64,000 nt of DNA from Comamonadaceae bacterium OTU4NAUVB1 (GTDB lineage: Bacteria; Pseudomonadota; Gammaproteobacteria; Burkholderiales; Burkholderiaceae_C), in contig CP099605.1 in assembly GCA_024372625.1 (NCBI GenBank), positions 2,728,001-2,792,000 on the forward strand, in the 5' to 3' direction. The notes under the pieces were generated by a model. It made no database searches, had not been told where the DNA came from, and saw only the letters and a program-made list of their open reading frames with translations. This document shows, piece after piece, positions 1 to 5,105 of this stretch. The position numbers were made by a program, and so were the translations under genes. Every line of letters begins with the position of its first letter. Position 1 is the first letter of the stretch.

Positions 1-3000
1 TCTACACGCCCGCCACCGACGGCGTGACGACCTCCGCCGCCAACCTGGCCGACGAGCGCTGGTACGCCACGATGCTCAACCTGCCCGACGGCCGCCCGGT
101 GGTGCTCGGAGGCATGAACCCCTATGCCGAGGGCATGCAGGACAACCCGGCCCAGTCGGTCGCCCAGGGTCTGGCGTCGATGACGCCGGAAGTGTTGGAG
201 AACGGCGCTTGGCGTTCCCTGTTCGGCGCCTACAGCCGGGACGCCTTCGGCCCGGACTACCTGCGCGCCTCCTACCCGCGCGCCTGGGTGGCGCCGGACG
301 GCCGCGTCTTCGGCGTCTCGGCCGAGACCATGTGGTACCTCGACCCCGCCGGCAACGGCACGCTGTCGGTGGCCGGCCGCTTCAAGGAGGCGCCCAACGC
401 GACCACGCGGCCCAACGTCGGCGCGACCAACACCGCCGTCATGTACGCGCCGGGCCGCATCCTGGTGGTCGGCGGCAACGGCTCGTTCAACGGCGACGGC
501 CTGCCCGCGAGCGCCGGGGCGACGATGATCGACATCAGCGGCGGCGCGCCCCGGCTCGCGGAACAGCCGGCGATGAAGACCGCGCGCCGCTTCCCCAACG
601 CGATCGTGCTGCCGACCGGCCGCGTGCTGATCACCGGCGGCACGCGGCAGGGCAACGAGAACGGCGTCAACGCGGTCTATGCCGCCGAGACCTGGGACCC
701 GGCCTCGGGCACCTGGAGCACCGGAGCGAACGCGGCCATCTTTCGCGGCTACCACTCCTTCAGCGTGCTGATGCCCAACGGCACGGTGCTCTCCACCGGC
801 GGCGGCGCCCCCGGCCCGGTGACCAACCGCAACGCCGAGGCCTATTACCCGCCCTACCTGTTCCGCACGGTCAACGGCGCCGCGCAGCTCGCGCCGCGCC
901 CGGTCATGGCGGCCCTGAGCGGGCTGACCTACGCCAACGGCGACGCCCTGCAGGTCGACATGGCCGGCGCCGGCGCCATCGCGCAGATGGTGCTGGTGGG
1001 CCTGAGCGCCGGCACGCACTCGTTCAACCCGGGCCAGCGCCGCATCCCGCTCGCGTTCTCCCAGGACACCTACCGCCTGACCACCACCGTGCCCGACAGG
1101 AACACCGTGCCGCCGGGCTACTACCAGCTGGTGGCGATCGACGCGGCGGGCGTGCCCTCGCGCGGCACCATCGTCGCCATCGGCGCCAACACCAGCGCAC
1201 CGCCGGTGGCCACCACGCCCTACAACCCGCCGGACCTGTCGGCCACCGTCAACGCACCGGTCATCGTGGCCGGCGGCACGGCCAGCTATGGCGTCTCGGC
1301 GGTCGCCGGCACCACCTACAGCTGGGACTTCGGCGACGGCTCCGCCGCCACCGCCTTCGCCACGGCCGCCACCGCCACCCACGTCTACGCCCAGCCGGGG
1401 GTCTACGCCGTCGTGCTGACGGCCCGGGCGGCCGACGGCTCGCTGGGGCGCCGCAGCTTCGTCCAGGCCGTGGGCGCGACGCCGACGGCGCGCAGGCCCA
1501 ACGCATCGGGCGCCACGGCGCTGGAGGCCCGCGCCAACGCCTCGGCGCGCCTGTGGATCGCCAACCCGGACAACGACTCGGTCGCCGTCGTCGACACCGC
1601 CACCAACGCCCGCGTGGCGGAGATCGCCGTGGGCGCCTCGCCGCGCAGCGTCGCGGTGGCGCCGGACGGCCGCGTCTGGGTCGTCAACAAGGCCTCGGCG
1701 AGCATCAGCATCGTCAACCCGGCCACGCTGGCGGTCGTGCAGACCGTGGCTCTGGCGCGTGCCTCGCAGCCGCACGGGCTGGTCTTCGCGCCCGGCGGCG
1801 GTGCCGCCTTCGTGGTGCTGGAGGCGCTCGGCCAGCTCCAGCGGCTCGACGCCGCCAGCGGCGCCGTGCAGGCGACCGCGGCCGTCGGCGCCAATCCCCG
1901 CCACCTGTCGATCGGCGCCGACGCGGCGACCGTGCTGGTCTCGCGCTTCGTCACCGCGCCGCTCGCGGGCGAAGGCACGGCGACGGTCAACACCGCCCTC
2001 GGCGGCGCCGAGGTGCTGGCGATCGACGCGTCGACGCTGGCGGTGACCCGCACCGTCGTGCTGCGCCACAGCGACAAGACCGACACCGAGATCCAGGGCG
2101 CCGGCCTCCCCAACTACCTGGGCGCGGCCACGATCTCGCCGGACGGCAGGTCGGCGTGGGTGCCCTCCAAGCAGGACAACGTCAAGCGCGGCACCCTGCG
2201 CAGCGGCCAGGGCCTGGACTTCCAGAACACCGTGCGCGCCATCTCCTCGCGCATCGAGCTGGCCACGCTCGCGGAGGATTACGCCCGGCGCGTGGACCAC
2301 GACAACGCGAGCCTCGGCTCGGCGGCGGCCTTCCACCCGTCGGGGGCCTACCTCTTCGTGGCGCTGGAGACCAGCCGCCAGGTGGCGGTGGTGGACGCGG
2401 CCGGCGGTCGCGAGCTGTTCAGGGCCGACGTGGGTCGCGCGCCGCAGGCCCTGTCGGTGTCGGCGGACGGCCGGACGCTGTACGTGCAGAACTTCATGGA
2501 CCGCAGCGTGAGCGTGCTGGACCTCGCCCCGCTGGCGGTCAACGGCGAACTGCGCCTGCCACCGATCGCCACCACCACGACGGTGGCCGCCGAGCGGCTC
2601 GCCGCGCAGGTGCTCGCGGGCAAGCAGCTGTTCTACGACGCGCGCGACCCGCGCCTGGCGCGCGACAGCTACATGAGCTGCGCGAGCTGCCACAGCGACG
2701 CGGGCCACGACGGGCGCACCTGGGACTTCACGGGCTTCGGCGAGGGCCTGCGCAACACCATCGCGCTCAAGGGCCGCGCGGGCGTGGGCCACGGCTTCAC
2801 CCACTGGAGCGCCAACGGCGACGAGGTCCAGGACTTCGAGAAGCAGATCCGCGACTTCGCGGGCGGCACCGGCCTGATGACGGACGCCCAGTTCGCCACC
2901 GGCACCCGCGCCCAGCCGCTGGGCGACCGCAAGGCCGGCGTGAGCACCGACCTCGACGCGCTGGCGGCCTACCTCGGCTCGCTCGACGCCTTCGCGCCCA

Positions 3001-4556
3001 GTCCGCTGCGCAACGCCGACGCCTCGCTGACCACGCCCGCGCAGGCGGGCAAGGCGGTCTTCGCGGCGGCCAACTGCGCGAGCTGCCACGCCGGGGCGCC
3101 CTTCACGCTCAGCGCCGACGCCAGCGCGCTGCGCAACGTCGGCACCCTGCGCACGAGCAGCGGCCAGCGCCTGGGCGCCAACCTCGCGGGCATCGACGTG
3201 CCCACGCTGCGCGACGTGTGGGCCACCGCCCCCTACCTGCACGACGGCAGCGCGCCGACGCTCGCGGCGGCCGTGCAGGCCCACGCGGGCACCAACCTGG
3301 GCGCGGGCGATCTGACCAGCCTGGTGGCGTACCTGCAGCAGATCGGCGGCGAGGAGACGGCCGCGCCCACCGCCGGCGGCACGGGCGGCGGCACGGGCAG
3401 CACCGGCGGCACGGGTGGCACGGGTGGCGGTACGGGCGGCACCGGGGGCACGACCGCCCCGGCCGCCGTGCCGCCGTCCACGGCCACGGCCTGCGCCGCC
3501 GAGGGCGGGACGTGCGCGCTGCCCGCGGGCGCCACCGCCACCGTCTGGTACGGCGCCAACGCCCAGTGGGCGGTCAGGACCGCCGTCGCCGGCACCATCG
3601 CCTGCACCAACGCCGTCTTCGGCGATCCGGCACCCGGCACGGTCAAGGGCTGCCGCTACGCGCTCGACGCGACGGTGAAGGCGACGACCAACCTGGCGCC
3701 GTCGGCCACGCTGGCGACCTCCTACGTCTCGCCCTGGGAGAGCCTGGCGGCGATGGCCAACACGGTCGCGCCGGCCAACTCGGCCGACCGCACCGGCGGC
3801 GCCTACGGCAACTGGCAGGGCGAGGCCAACTATGGACGCACCGACTGGGTCAGCTTCACCTGGACCACCCCCAAGGCGCTGAGCGCGCTGGAGGTCTACT
3901 GGTGGAACGACGGCGCGGGCATCGGCACGCCGACGGCCGCCAGCGTCGAGTACTGGAGCGGCACCGCCTGGCTGCCCCTGGGTGCCGTGGGCACCGCGCT
4001 CGACACCTTCAACCGCGCGACGCTGGGCGTGACGACCACCCGGCTGCGCGTGGCCATGAGGAGCGCCCGGGCCACCGGCATCCTGGAGGCGCGCGTGCTC
4101 GGCGCCGAGGCACCGGCACCGACCAACATCGCCGCGACGGCCACGCTGGCGACCTCCTACGTCTCGCCCTGGGAGAGCCTGGCGGCGGTGACCGACGCGC
4201 TCGTGCCGGCCAACTCGGCCGACCGCACCGGCGGCGCCTACGGCAACTGGCAGGGCGAGGCGCTCTACAACCGCACCGACTGGGTCAGCTTCACCTGGAC
4301 CGCGCCCAAGTCGCTGAGCGCGCTGGAGGTCTACTGGTGGAACGACGGCGCGGGCATCGCCACGCCGACGGCGGCGACGGCGGAGTTCTGGGACGGCAAG
4401 GCCTGGCAGCCACTGCCGGCCCCGGGCATGGCGCTCAACGCCTTCAACCGCGTCGATTTCCAGGTCACCGCCACCGCCGTTCGCGTGGCCATGAAGAGCG
4501 CCAGGGCCACCGGCATCCTGGAGGCGCGCATCCTGGGCGGCGACGCGCCGCGATGA
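1..4556 (+). CDS. Kelch copper-radical-oxidase-like / PKD / YVTN / diheme cytochrome fusion protein (5' end outside window)
   Basis: The frame is open to the left edge, so the N-terminus is missing. Numbered from the GTG at 24, about 1510 residues are visible. Kelch-like repeats of a galactose/glyoxal oxidase occupy about 1-300, and a DUF1929 domain about 290-390. Candidate copper ligands are present: Tyr14 (RWYAT), Tyr243-His244 (GYHS) and His332 (THSFN). The partner Cys of the radical cofactor would lie upstream. A PKD domain follows (about 400-485, WDFGDG at 434), then YVTN propeller repeats (about 506-850). A diheme cytochrome c-peroxidase-like region has CASCH at 886 and 1018 and a PYLHDG motif. 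A Gly/Thr linker (about 1115-1145) leads to two near-identical discoidin-like modules of about 145 residues. The protein is presumably exported for heme attachment. I infer alcohol or aldehyde oxidation coupled to electron or peroxide handling; the substrate is unknown. Confidence 0.75.
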   Translation, partial: YTPATDGVTTSAANLADERWYATMLNLPDGRPVVLGGMNPYAEGMQDNPAQSVAQGLASMTPEVLENGAWRSLFGAYSRDAFGPDYLRASYPRAWVAPDGRVFGVSAETMWYLDPAGNGTLSVAGRFKEAPNATTRPNVGATNTAVMYAPGRILVVGGNGSFNGDGLPASAGATMIDISGGAPRLAEQPAMKTARRFPNAIVLPTGRVLITGGTRQGNENGVNAVYAAETWDPASGTWSTGANAAIFRGYHSFSVLMPNGTVLSTGGGAPGPVTNRNAEAYYPPYLFRTVNGAAQLAPRPVMAALSGLTYANGDALQVDMAGAGAIAQMVLVGLSAGTHSFNPGQRRIPLAFSQDTYRLTTTVPDRNTVPPGYYQLVAIDAAGVPSRGTIVAIGANTSAPPVATTPYNPPDLSATVNAPVIVAGGTASYGVSAVAGTTYSWDFGDGSAATAFATAATATHVYAQPGVYAVVLTARAADGSLGRRSFVQAVGATPTARRPNASGATALEARANASARLWIANPDNDSVAVVDTATNARVAEIAVGASPRSVAVAPDGRVWVVNKASASISIVNPATLAVVQTVALARASQPHGLVFAPGGGAAFVVLEALGQLQRLDAASGAVQATAAVGANPRHLSIGADAATVLVSRFVTAPLAGEGTATVNTALGGAEVLAIDASTLAVTRTVVLRHSDKTDTEIQGAGLPNYLGAATISPDGRSAWVPSKQDNVKRGTLRSGQGLDFQNTVRAISSRIELATLAEDYARRVDHDNASLGSAAAFHPSGAYLFVALETSRQVAVVDAAGGRELFRADVGRAPQALSVSADGRTLYVQNFMDRSVSVLDLAPLAVNGELRLPPIATTTTVAAERLAAQVLAGKQLFYDARDPRLARDSYMSCASCHSDAGHDGRTWDFTGFGEGLRNTIALKGRAGVGHGFTHWSANGDEVQDFEKQIRDFAGGTGLMTDAQFATGTRAQPLGDRKAGVSTDLDALAAYLGSLDAFAPSPLRNADASLTTPAQAGKAVFAAANCASCHAGAPFTLSADASALRNVGTLRTSSGQRLGANLAGIDVPTLRDVWATAPYLHDGSAPTLAAAVQAHAGTNLGAGDLTSLVAYLQQIGGEETAAPTAGGTGGGTGSTGGTGGTGGGTGGTGGTTAPAAVPPSTATACAAEGGTCALPAGATATVWYGANAQWAVRTAVAGTIACTNAVFGDPAPGTVKGCRYALDATVKATTNLAPSATLATSYVSPWESLAAMANTVAPANSADRTGGAYGNWQGEANYGRTDWVSFTWTTPKALSALEVYWWNDGAGIGTPTAASVEYWSGTAWLPLGAVGTALDTFNRATLGVTTTRLRVAMRSARATGILEARVLGAEAPAPTNIAATATLATSYVSPWESLAAVTDALVPANSADRTGGAYGNWQGEALYNRTDWVSFTWTAPKSLSALEVYWWNDGAGIATPTAATAEFWDGKAWQPLPAPGMALNAFNRVDFQVTATAVRVAMKSARATGILEARILGGDAPR
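3373..3453 (+). repeat. Gly/Thr-rich low-complexity linker
   Basis: GGC/ACG/GGT codons repeat irregularly and encode a flexible Gly-Gly-Thr linker between the diheme region and the C-terminal modules of the large exported protein. Confidence 0.7.
3687..4553 (+). repeat. Tandem 435-bp intragenic duplication (two copies)
   Basis: Copy 1 is 3687-4121 and copy 2 is 4122-4553, a shift of 435 bases (145 codons). Long stretches are identical at DNA level, for example around 3711 and 4146 and around 3880 and 4315. Each copy encodes a discoidin-like (F5/8 type C) module of the kind appended to secreted bacterial carbohydrate-active proteins, with conserved SPWES, DRTGGAYGNWQ and YWWNDGAG motifs. This is a recent in-frame domain duplication. 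Confidence 0.8.
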
Positions 4557-4577: not shown

Positions 4578-5105
4578 TCAGTTCGGCTCGGCGGCGCGGT
4601 CGGGGGACGATCCGCTGCGCACCACGCGCTGGTCGCGGTCGAGCACGACGGTGAAGACCATCGGCGTGTTCGGCGGCTGCACCCATCGCCATTCCCATTC
4701 GCTCTCGCGCTTGAGCGCGTAGGGCATGACCCTCGCGGGCTTGCCCAGCAGCTTGCGCACGTCCTCCATCGCCATGCCGGGGCGCACGCGGGCGAAGTTC
4801 TCGGGCGTGAGCACCTGGCGCAGCGCGCTCATGCGGCCGTCCGCGCCGATGGTGATCATGTAGTTCTTCTGGCCCTGCGGCTGGCGGTTGTATTCGAGCA
4901 CCCGGCCGCCCGGCACGCCCGGGGCGTCCCAGACGTTCTCGGGCTGGCCGAAGCGCGTGCGCACGTCCGCCTCGGTGGAGACGCCCTCCTCGAGCTGTTC
5001 GATGCGCTGCGGATCGCACCCCGACAGCGTCAGCACGGCCGACCCCGCCACCGCCAGTGCCGCCAGCGAAGTCGCCAGCCGGTTCCCACCGAAGCGTGTT
5101 GACAT
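4578..5105 (-). CDS. BamE/SmpA-domain lipoprotein
   Basis: A 175-residue protein with a lipoprotein signal: a hydrophobic stretch ending in the lipobox LSGC, with Cys at about residue 29. The mature part looks like a double SmpA/OmlA (BamE-like) fold. An early DVRTRFGQPE motif and a later MEDVRKLLGKPARV motif match the family's repeated small-protein pattern. BamE proper is a shorter accessory lipoprotein of the outer-membrane beta-barrel assembly machine, so this longer paralogue may have another envelope role. It diverges from the DUF3460-scpA genes across a 38-base gap. Placement in the outer membrane is inferred. Confidence 0.8.
   Translation of the reverse strand: MSTRFGGNRLATSLAALAVAGSAVLTLSGCDPQRIEQLEEGVSTEADVRTRFGQPENVWDAPGVPGGRVLEYNRQPQGQKNYMITIGADGRMSALRQVLTPENFARVRPGMAMEDVRKLLGKPARVMPYALKRESEWEWRWVQPPNTPMVFTVVLDRDQRVVRSGSSPDRAAEPN

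Follow-up and report, generated by a model that had tools for sequence, protein, structure and literature searches.

Bacterial copper-radical oxidases have a described link to heme proteins and Sco-type chaperones in Streptomyces lividans where, according to the accessible sections of the GlxA study, both Sco and the heme peroxidase DtpA are required for maturation of the oxidase GlxA at low copper, DtpA compound I forms with GlxA-made H2O2, and Gox genes lie beside sco in certain Burkholderia (PMC4736821). A similar pairing occurs in the fungi Colletotrichum and Magnaporthe, where an AA5_2 alcohol oxidase is accompanied by a heme peroxidase; the Colletotrichum peroxidase, encoded by a neighbouring gene, activates the oxidase, with electron paramagnetic resonance evidence of one-electron oxidation (PMC9770985, in its available text). 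In glyoxal oxidases, too, the radical is lost, and activity can be restored with peroxidase systems (PMC10928124). Here we describe a gene at the 5' edge of a 64,000-nucleotide stretch from Comamonadaceae bacterium OTU4NAUVB1 (contig CP099605.1, positions 2,728,001 to 2,792,000; hereafter the window) that encodes a putative copper-radical oxidase fused to a c-type diheme module. The S. lividans peroxidase is a separate DyP protein (PMC4736821, same sections), whereas the fusion carries its diheme unit in cis, behind a PKD domain and a propeller. The fungal systems differ further in being two secreted proteins from head-to-head genes, with a class II peroxidase and no propeller, and no SCO1 is reported in the available part of that work (PMC9770985).

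The full gene (G000:C3:2727409-2732556) encodes 1715 amino acids and begins upstream of the window, as seen in upstream DNA of the same genome; the chosen ATG at L003 11409 corresponds to G000:C3:2727409, and residue numbers below refer to this protein unless stated. An earlier note on this DNA had read an oxidase-type kelch head, a PKD domain, a YVTN propeller and a diheme unit in one chain, and Pfam bears this out with matches that are all above their cut-offs (in an 1849-residue version of the frame starting 134 codons 5' of the chosen ATG): GO-like_E_set (PF09118, 59.3 bits, cut-off 25), Glyoxal_oxid_N (PF07250, 43.9, cut-off 37.5), PKD (41.3, cut-off 23.5), RoxA-like_Cyt-c (34.1, cut-off 26.7), the YNCE propeller (33.2, cut-off 27.1), and CCP_MauG (PF03150, 32.4, cut-off 25.6). 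The domain order is a kelch oxidase head with a GO-like early set, PKD, a YVTN/YncE propeller, the diheme domain, a Gly/Thr linker, a four-Cys stretch, and two repeats. The signal peptide to be sought upstream is present and of lipoprotein type, ending in the lipobox LSAC47 (Cys47), so the fusion is expected to be exported as a lipoprotein and is predicted to sit at the cell surface. The two discoidin-like modules that had been proposed at the C-terminus stand as two repeats. Their discoidin identity stays tentative, since at E<=1 no credible Pfam family was found (the longer piece gave one spurious sub-threshold match, a single repeat none) and the sole PDB match, a beta-galactosidase, is weak (E=2e-4); the repeats weakly resemble galactose-binding modules.

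This architecture belongs to a broad family and is not a single curiosity. A protein search scored 8000 candidates, with 2358 at E<=1e-3 and 120 listed, and both halves were verified in the 119 that were aligned. All 119 keep both halves, with two lacking the Cys174 stretch and one or two lacking part of the second heme motif. The closest named homologs among the matches listed are from Variovorax (81-89% identity), and the tails vary among the listed homologs (AbfB, ricin-type lectin, PA14, LamG, F5/8 type C, and Ig-like). In GTDB species contigs, at least 572 of 586 matching stretches were confirmed on scanning. Loci were compared in a set of 82, made up of the best 80 of these at least 572 stretches and two from the host genome, and the set therefore favours close relatives; counts over 72 full-length loci omit the 10 whose core is not covered whole in one frame. 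The best 80 are titled Burkholderiales, Methylophilales, Pseudomonadales, Steroidobacter, Methylobacter, Panacagrimonas, and Verrucomicrobiota, together with one bin each titled Chloroflexi, Polyangiaceae, and Planctomycetota, where the Planctomycetota locus is divided between two frames. Many of these loci come from metagenome bins, so binning errors may account for the odd taxa (Myxococcota, Chloroflexota, Planctomycetota). Among individual genomes, both halves occur in one frame in at least 2 of 397 from the phylum and at least 2 of 300 from the order, host counted in both and with the best two candidates per genome scored; the full fusion was not found in 36 other genomes of the genus (at most nine candidates scored per genome). 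The family, with its differing carbohydrate-binding tails, is thus widespread, mostly in Burkholderiales and other Proteobacteria, but patchy among genomes.

The second host locus in the set is a paralogous fusion, CRO2, with a galactose-oxidase-type head (G000:C5:186826-192039; L004:6827-12040). The heads of the two host fusions are 34% identical and their PKD-propeller-diheme parts 60%. The same domain order in CRO2 and 70 other full-length loci rules out an isolated chimera or assembly artefact. The earlier note knew of no system with this order, and full-text searches of a collection of openly licensed papers likewise gave no account of a protein that joins a copper-radical oxidase and a diheme module; as far as that collection shows, the family is undescribed. 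A Burkholderia AA5 alcohol oxidase is reportedly fused to a CE3 domain, and so joins a bacterial AA5 oxidase to another enzyme-type domain. Its partner has a carbohydrate esterase fold, however, and is not a heme module as in the fusion.

Judged from its sequence, the head has the parts of a copper-radical oxidase, although its substrate cannot be read in this way. Both the kelch propeller and the GO-like early set of AA5 copper-radical oxidases are present, and a head profile matches galactose oxidase structures at best with 7.5e-64. HMMER alignments place Cys174, Tyr219, Tyr448-His449, and His537 opposite the Cys, Tyr, Tyr-His, and His of galactose oxidases, which we take to be the copper-site ligands; the last four are the residues that the earlier note had numbered Tyr14, Tyr243, His244, and His332 and assigned the same role. 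Cys174, the putative Cys partner of the radical Tyr, lies within QDSFCSA upstream of the window, where it was to be looked for, and on account of its presence a truncated or dead copper site is rejected. All five residues are found in 72/72 full-length loci, host fusion and paralog included. In a 121-row alignment of the 119 listed homologs and the two host proteins, Cys174 is present in 119 rows with 2 gaps, and the other four residues in all 121. The Trp of the GGSWSGG motif is a second-shell residue of galactose oxidase proper; this motif is absent from the window head, which reads GGMNPYAEG, and the paralog reads GGSWAGG. With the GlxA model (NCBIfam equivalog NF052501) the head scores 139.7 bits against a curated cut-off of 800. 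The diheme half is similarly conserved, with both CXXCH motifs (1091 and 1223) in 72/72 full-length loci and, in the 121-row alignment, the first in 121 and the second in 119-120. Since the copper ligands and both CXXCH motifs are invariant in the 72 full-length loci, the architecture is not a product of chance.

A gene for an SCO1/SenC protein (PF02630, 7.1e-23; no NCBIfam family at E<=0.01) ends about 170 bp before the ATG of the host fusion on the same strand, so that the host fusion has a Sco gene linked to its oxidase, as in the GlxA-DtpA-Sco set. This gene and the conservation of the fusion are the stronger clues, and both lie outside the interval covered by the earlier note. When adjacency was called by tblastn (E<=1e-6) in stretches reaching up to about 8 kb on each side, SCO1 adjoined the fusion in 58/82 loci (at a median of 108 bp and at most 1173 bp, with 57 no farther off than 700 bp), on the strand of the fusion in 57 of the 58, and no locus of the 82 had a second SCO1 within these stretches. 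A CxxxCP copper-binding motif is present in 55/58 of the adjacent proteins; the exceptions are L012 and L016, which do not have it, and L079, whose frame was misread. By head type, SCO1 accompanies 24/25 fusions with a head of the window type, 24/27 with a galactose-oxidase-type head, 5/18 with a short head, and 0/2 from Verrucomicrobia. Of the three galactose-oxidase-type loci that lack SCO1, L053 and L054 lie on contigs ending at the 3' side of the fusion, and the same holds for L027 and L064 among the 13 short-head loci that lack it; the sole window-type locus without SCO1 (L026) has 153 bp at the 3' side of the fusion.

Loci with only one of the two halves indicate which of them SCO1 follows. 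Propeller-diheme loci free of an oxidase have neither SCO1 (0/9) nor a small cytochrome gene (0/9), and the difference in SCO1 from the fusions (53/72) gives a Fisher p=2.6e-5, although the rows are not independent, 7/9 of these controls being from the host genus. Standalone oxidase loci have SCO1 in 4/16 cases, 3 of these 4 with a small cytochrome. All four are among the six standalone oxidases most like the fusion heads (>=50% identity), the other two being L102, with a sub-cut-off match, and L117, with none; none of the ten more distant loci has SCO1. On balance, SCO1 tracks this group of oxidase heads and not the propeller-diheme part, the pattern that a supplier of copper should show. Beyond the SCO1/cytochrome group, clustering of neighbouring genes returned only scattered groups.

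The propeller-diheme half lies near both peroxidases and hydrazine synthase, with profiles leaning narrowly toward the beta-gamma part of the latter. The profile built for the diheme domain (22 rows) matched hydrazine synthase gamma first (5c2v_C, 2.9e-21, 79.4 bits) and the peroxidase 3o5c second (3.5e-20, 75.9 bits). With the profile built for both domains together (35 rows) the best match was the surface layer protein 1l0q, via the propeller, followed by 5c2v_C (4.7e-21), 3o5c (3.4e-20), and hydrazine synthase beta (5c2v_B, 1e-18). A single-sequence search with the host fusion instead placed 3o5c (6.1e-11) ahead of 5c2v_C (2.8e-10), and that with the paralog likewise put 3o5c first. The NCBIfam model for hydrazine synthase beta-gamma fusions gave 3.8e-22; the cut-offs of this and two further hydrazine synthase models (1250, 560, and 625 bits) are well above the scores obtained (78.2, 52.5, and 51.2), and the similarity is still clear.

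The predicted heme ligands depart from those of canonical peroxidases. The aligned counterpart in 3o5c and 1iqc of His1292, found in 72/72 full-length loci, is a Met, presumably the axial ligand of their second heme, and neither an axial Met, as in bacterial cytochrome c peroxidase, nor an axial Tyr, as in MauG, is present at this heme in the 72 loci. The second heme is therefore expected to be bis-His, like gamma-II of hydrazine synthase, and a plain bacterial cytochrome c peroxidase is rejected. The diheme peroxidase-like unit of the earlier note thus holds at the level of the CCP/MauG superfamily and not as a canonical peroxidase. No His is invariant in the loop past the first CXXCH (His1100 occurs in 40/72), so the first heme may be open. 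His1132, which is invariant, and Trp1133, present in 71/72 full-length loci, may contribute to the active site and supply the inter-heme Trp, although the placement of Trp1133 is not fixed by sequence. The propeller also holds a long, strongly conserved stretch around residues 892-966.

Among solved structures, hydrazine synthase beta/gamma is narrowly the closest relative of the half by family profile, and shares with it a propeller followed by a CCP/MauG-type diheme unit (PMC12758564 and PMC12607021, in their available parts; PDB 5c2v) as well as, by expectation, a bis-His second heme. The fusion differs in carrying an oxidase head on the same chain in place of an alpha subunit and in scoring far below the family cut-offs. 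The third heme-linking Cys described for gamma-I (PMC12758564, accessible text) also has no counterpart, the only Cys of the diheme domain being the four of the CXXCH motifs. Fused beta-gamma homologs are reportedly prevalent in environmental bacteria, and the available portion of that account mentions no oxidase head (PMC12758564). Bacterial diheme peroxidases, MauG, MbnH, and BthA share the PF03150 fold and two CXXCH motifs with the fusion, in which Trp1133 is a candidate for their inter-heme Trp, and differ from it in their axial Met (bacterial peroxidases) or Tyr (MauG, BthA) and in having no attached propeller and oxidase head; the accessible text of the BthA network paper contains neither 'fusion' nor 'propeller' (PMC6405878).

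We favour, at slightly less than an even chance, an AA5-type copper-radical oxidase that carries its own c-type diheme module for activation in cis and peroxide disposal. This reading draws on the apparently intact copper-radical site, the two c-heme motifs, the lipobox, the conserved fusion, and the adjacent SCO1 with its copper-binding motif. We infer that SCO1 would help to load copper into the head, which would then oxidise primary alcohol or aldehyde groups of glycans or small molecules near the variable tail and release H2O2. The H2O2 would react at the putatively open first heme, from which oxidising equivalents would pass back to the Cu/Tyr site and form or sustain the radical, and excess peroxide would be removed by the heme half. 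Such a scheme would parallel in cis the Streptomyces set of GlxA, DtpA, and Sco and the paired oxidase and peroxidase of fungi, and these precedents, with that of glyoxal oxidase, make the trio of oxidase, heme protein, and SCO a sensible one. A narrower version, which we hold to be unlikely, is a self-priming oxidase in which the hydrazine-synthase-like unit takes H2O2 made by the head, possibly via an internal tunnel, and with it oxidises the Cu/Tyr-Cys site by one electron.

Several observations weigh against the favoured reading. SCO1 is not adjacent in 13/18 short-head loci, in both Verrucomicrobia loci, or in the fusion locus L118. The axial His in place of Met suggests a low-potential second heme, unlike that of canonical peroxidases, and the propeller-diheme half is also joined to non-oxidase heads and is therefore not dedicated to oxidases. 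In the accessible sections of the S. lividans work, DtpA gave GlxA no boost over horseradish peroxidase and strong binding was not observed; oxidation of the Cu(I) bound to Sco is the explanation that the authors prefer (PMC4736821). With glyoxal oxidase, horseradish peroxidase works best with a mediator (PMC10928124).

The hemes might instead serve as an electron outlet, trading electrons with the copper site and handing them to a partner cytochrome, so that the head would act partly as a surface dehydrogenase and make little H2O2; we consider this rather unlikely. A gene for a small protein with one CXXCH lies beside 24/27 galactose-oxidase-type fusions (25/82 loci overall), and in CRO2 (L004:12033-12545) it overlaps the end of the fusion, with the SCO1 match about 675 bp downstream. 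In three loci of the host genus (L113, L114, and L115), a standalone galactose-oxidase-type oxidase is followed directly by the same small gene and then by SCO1. A partner cytochrome would fit these arrangements, and the bis-His coordination expected of the second heme is like that of gamma-II, where electrons enter according to the available text on hydrazine synthase (PMC12607021). However, the gene accompanies 0/25 window-type and 0/18 short-head fusions, and so is not beside the gene in the host window, the small protein matches Pfam cytochromes below cut-off, and known copper-radical oxidases use O2.

The head, heme module, and tail may also share an anchor and a substrate surface with no exchange of peroxide or electrons, an uncoupled arrangement that we regard as distinctly unlikely. 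It is favoured by the portability of the propeller-diheme half. In L095, from the host genus, the half follows a head of LVIVD repeats, Big_5, LamG, and PKD and precedes a ricin-type lectin (by Pfam), a layout also read in the sequences of L096, L100, and L101 of the same genus; L097 has an LVIVD, Big_5, and PKD head without the lectin, and L098 is a standalone form of 797 amino acids in a genome that encodes separate oxidases too. The wide variation in tails, and the greater divergence of the two host heads than of the parts behind them, point the same way. The conserved join to oxidase heads and the invariance of all redox ligands speak against it, as does a tree of 82 halves. Here the seven rows labelled LVIVD form one clade (support 100) apart from the rows fused to copper-radical oxidases, with the heads of L119-L121 shown only to lack an oxidase match and L119 and L121 labelled LVIVD by assumption. 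The head labels need 8 changes on this tree against 43.7 when shuffled, and the pairing of oxidase heads with the half seems long-standing and stable, apart from a few swaps of one head type for another. L098 sits on a long branch inside the oxidase-fused rows, so head loss is possible there.

A two-site channel enzyme, in which the oxidase head would replace hydrazine synthase alpha and a tunnel through the intervening propeller would carry H2O2 or aldehyde from copper to heme, is highly improbable: the profile matches to both gamma and beta and to the beta-gamma fusion model, the two active hemes joined by a tunnel with a beta loop approaching in hydrazine synthase (PMC12607021, available text), and the conserved propeller stretch, which is at most a candidate match to that loop, are set against a PKD domain between head and propeller, the missing gamma-I Cys, and a score of 78.2 bits against a cut-off of 1250.

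Table 1 Features of the fusion gene within the window.
Feature	Window position	Strand	Basis or remark
Fusion gene, 5' part beyond window edge	3-4556	+	Open frame; residues 199-1715 of 1715
Copper-radical oxidase head (putative), residues 199-591, rest including Cys174 upstream of window	3-1181	+	Pfam, PDB alignments to galactose oxidases, conservation
Tyr219	63-65	+	Putative copper-site ligand
Tyr448-His449	750-755	+	Putative copper-site ligands
His537	1017-1019	+	Putative copper-site ligand
PKD domain, about residues 615-690	1251-1478	+	PF00801/PF18911
YVTN/YncE-type propeller, about residues 712-1045	1542-2543	+	PF21783, TIGR02276, hydrazine_beta, profile match 5c2v_B; edges set by eye
Diheme domain, about residues 1060-1318	2586-3362	+	PF03150, profile matches, conservation
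CXXCH motifs (residues 1091 and 1223)	2679-2693 and 3075-3089	+	Sequence, conservation
His1132-Trp1133	2802-2807	+	Conservation
His1292	3282-3284	+	Conservation
Gly/Thr-rich linker and short stretch with four Cys	3363-3677	+	Sequence
Two tandem repeats, 3678-4109 and 4110-4553	3678-4553	+	74% mutual identity

The convergent neighbour of the fusion (window 4578-5105, minus strand) encodes a BamE domain (PF04355) with a lipobox-like LSGC and has no evident link to the fusion.

The extracellular maturation and radical upkeep of copper-radical oxidases are unsettled, and bacterial members of the group have been little studied. A natural oxidase-heme fusion beside a likely copper chaperone would allow the loading of copper, the production of peroxide, and the oxidation of heme to be measured in a single construct and told apart by mutation. 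The fusion further sets the common hydrazine-synthase-like beta-gamma module beside an oxidase, a context useful for asking what this module does. If the self-priming version were true, one polypeptide would make peroxide and use the same peroxide to build and maintain its own radical.

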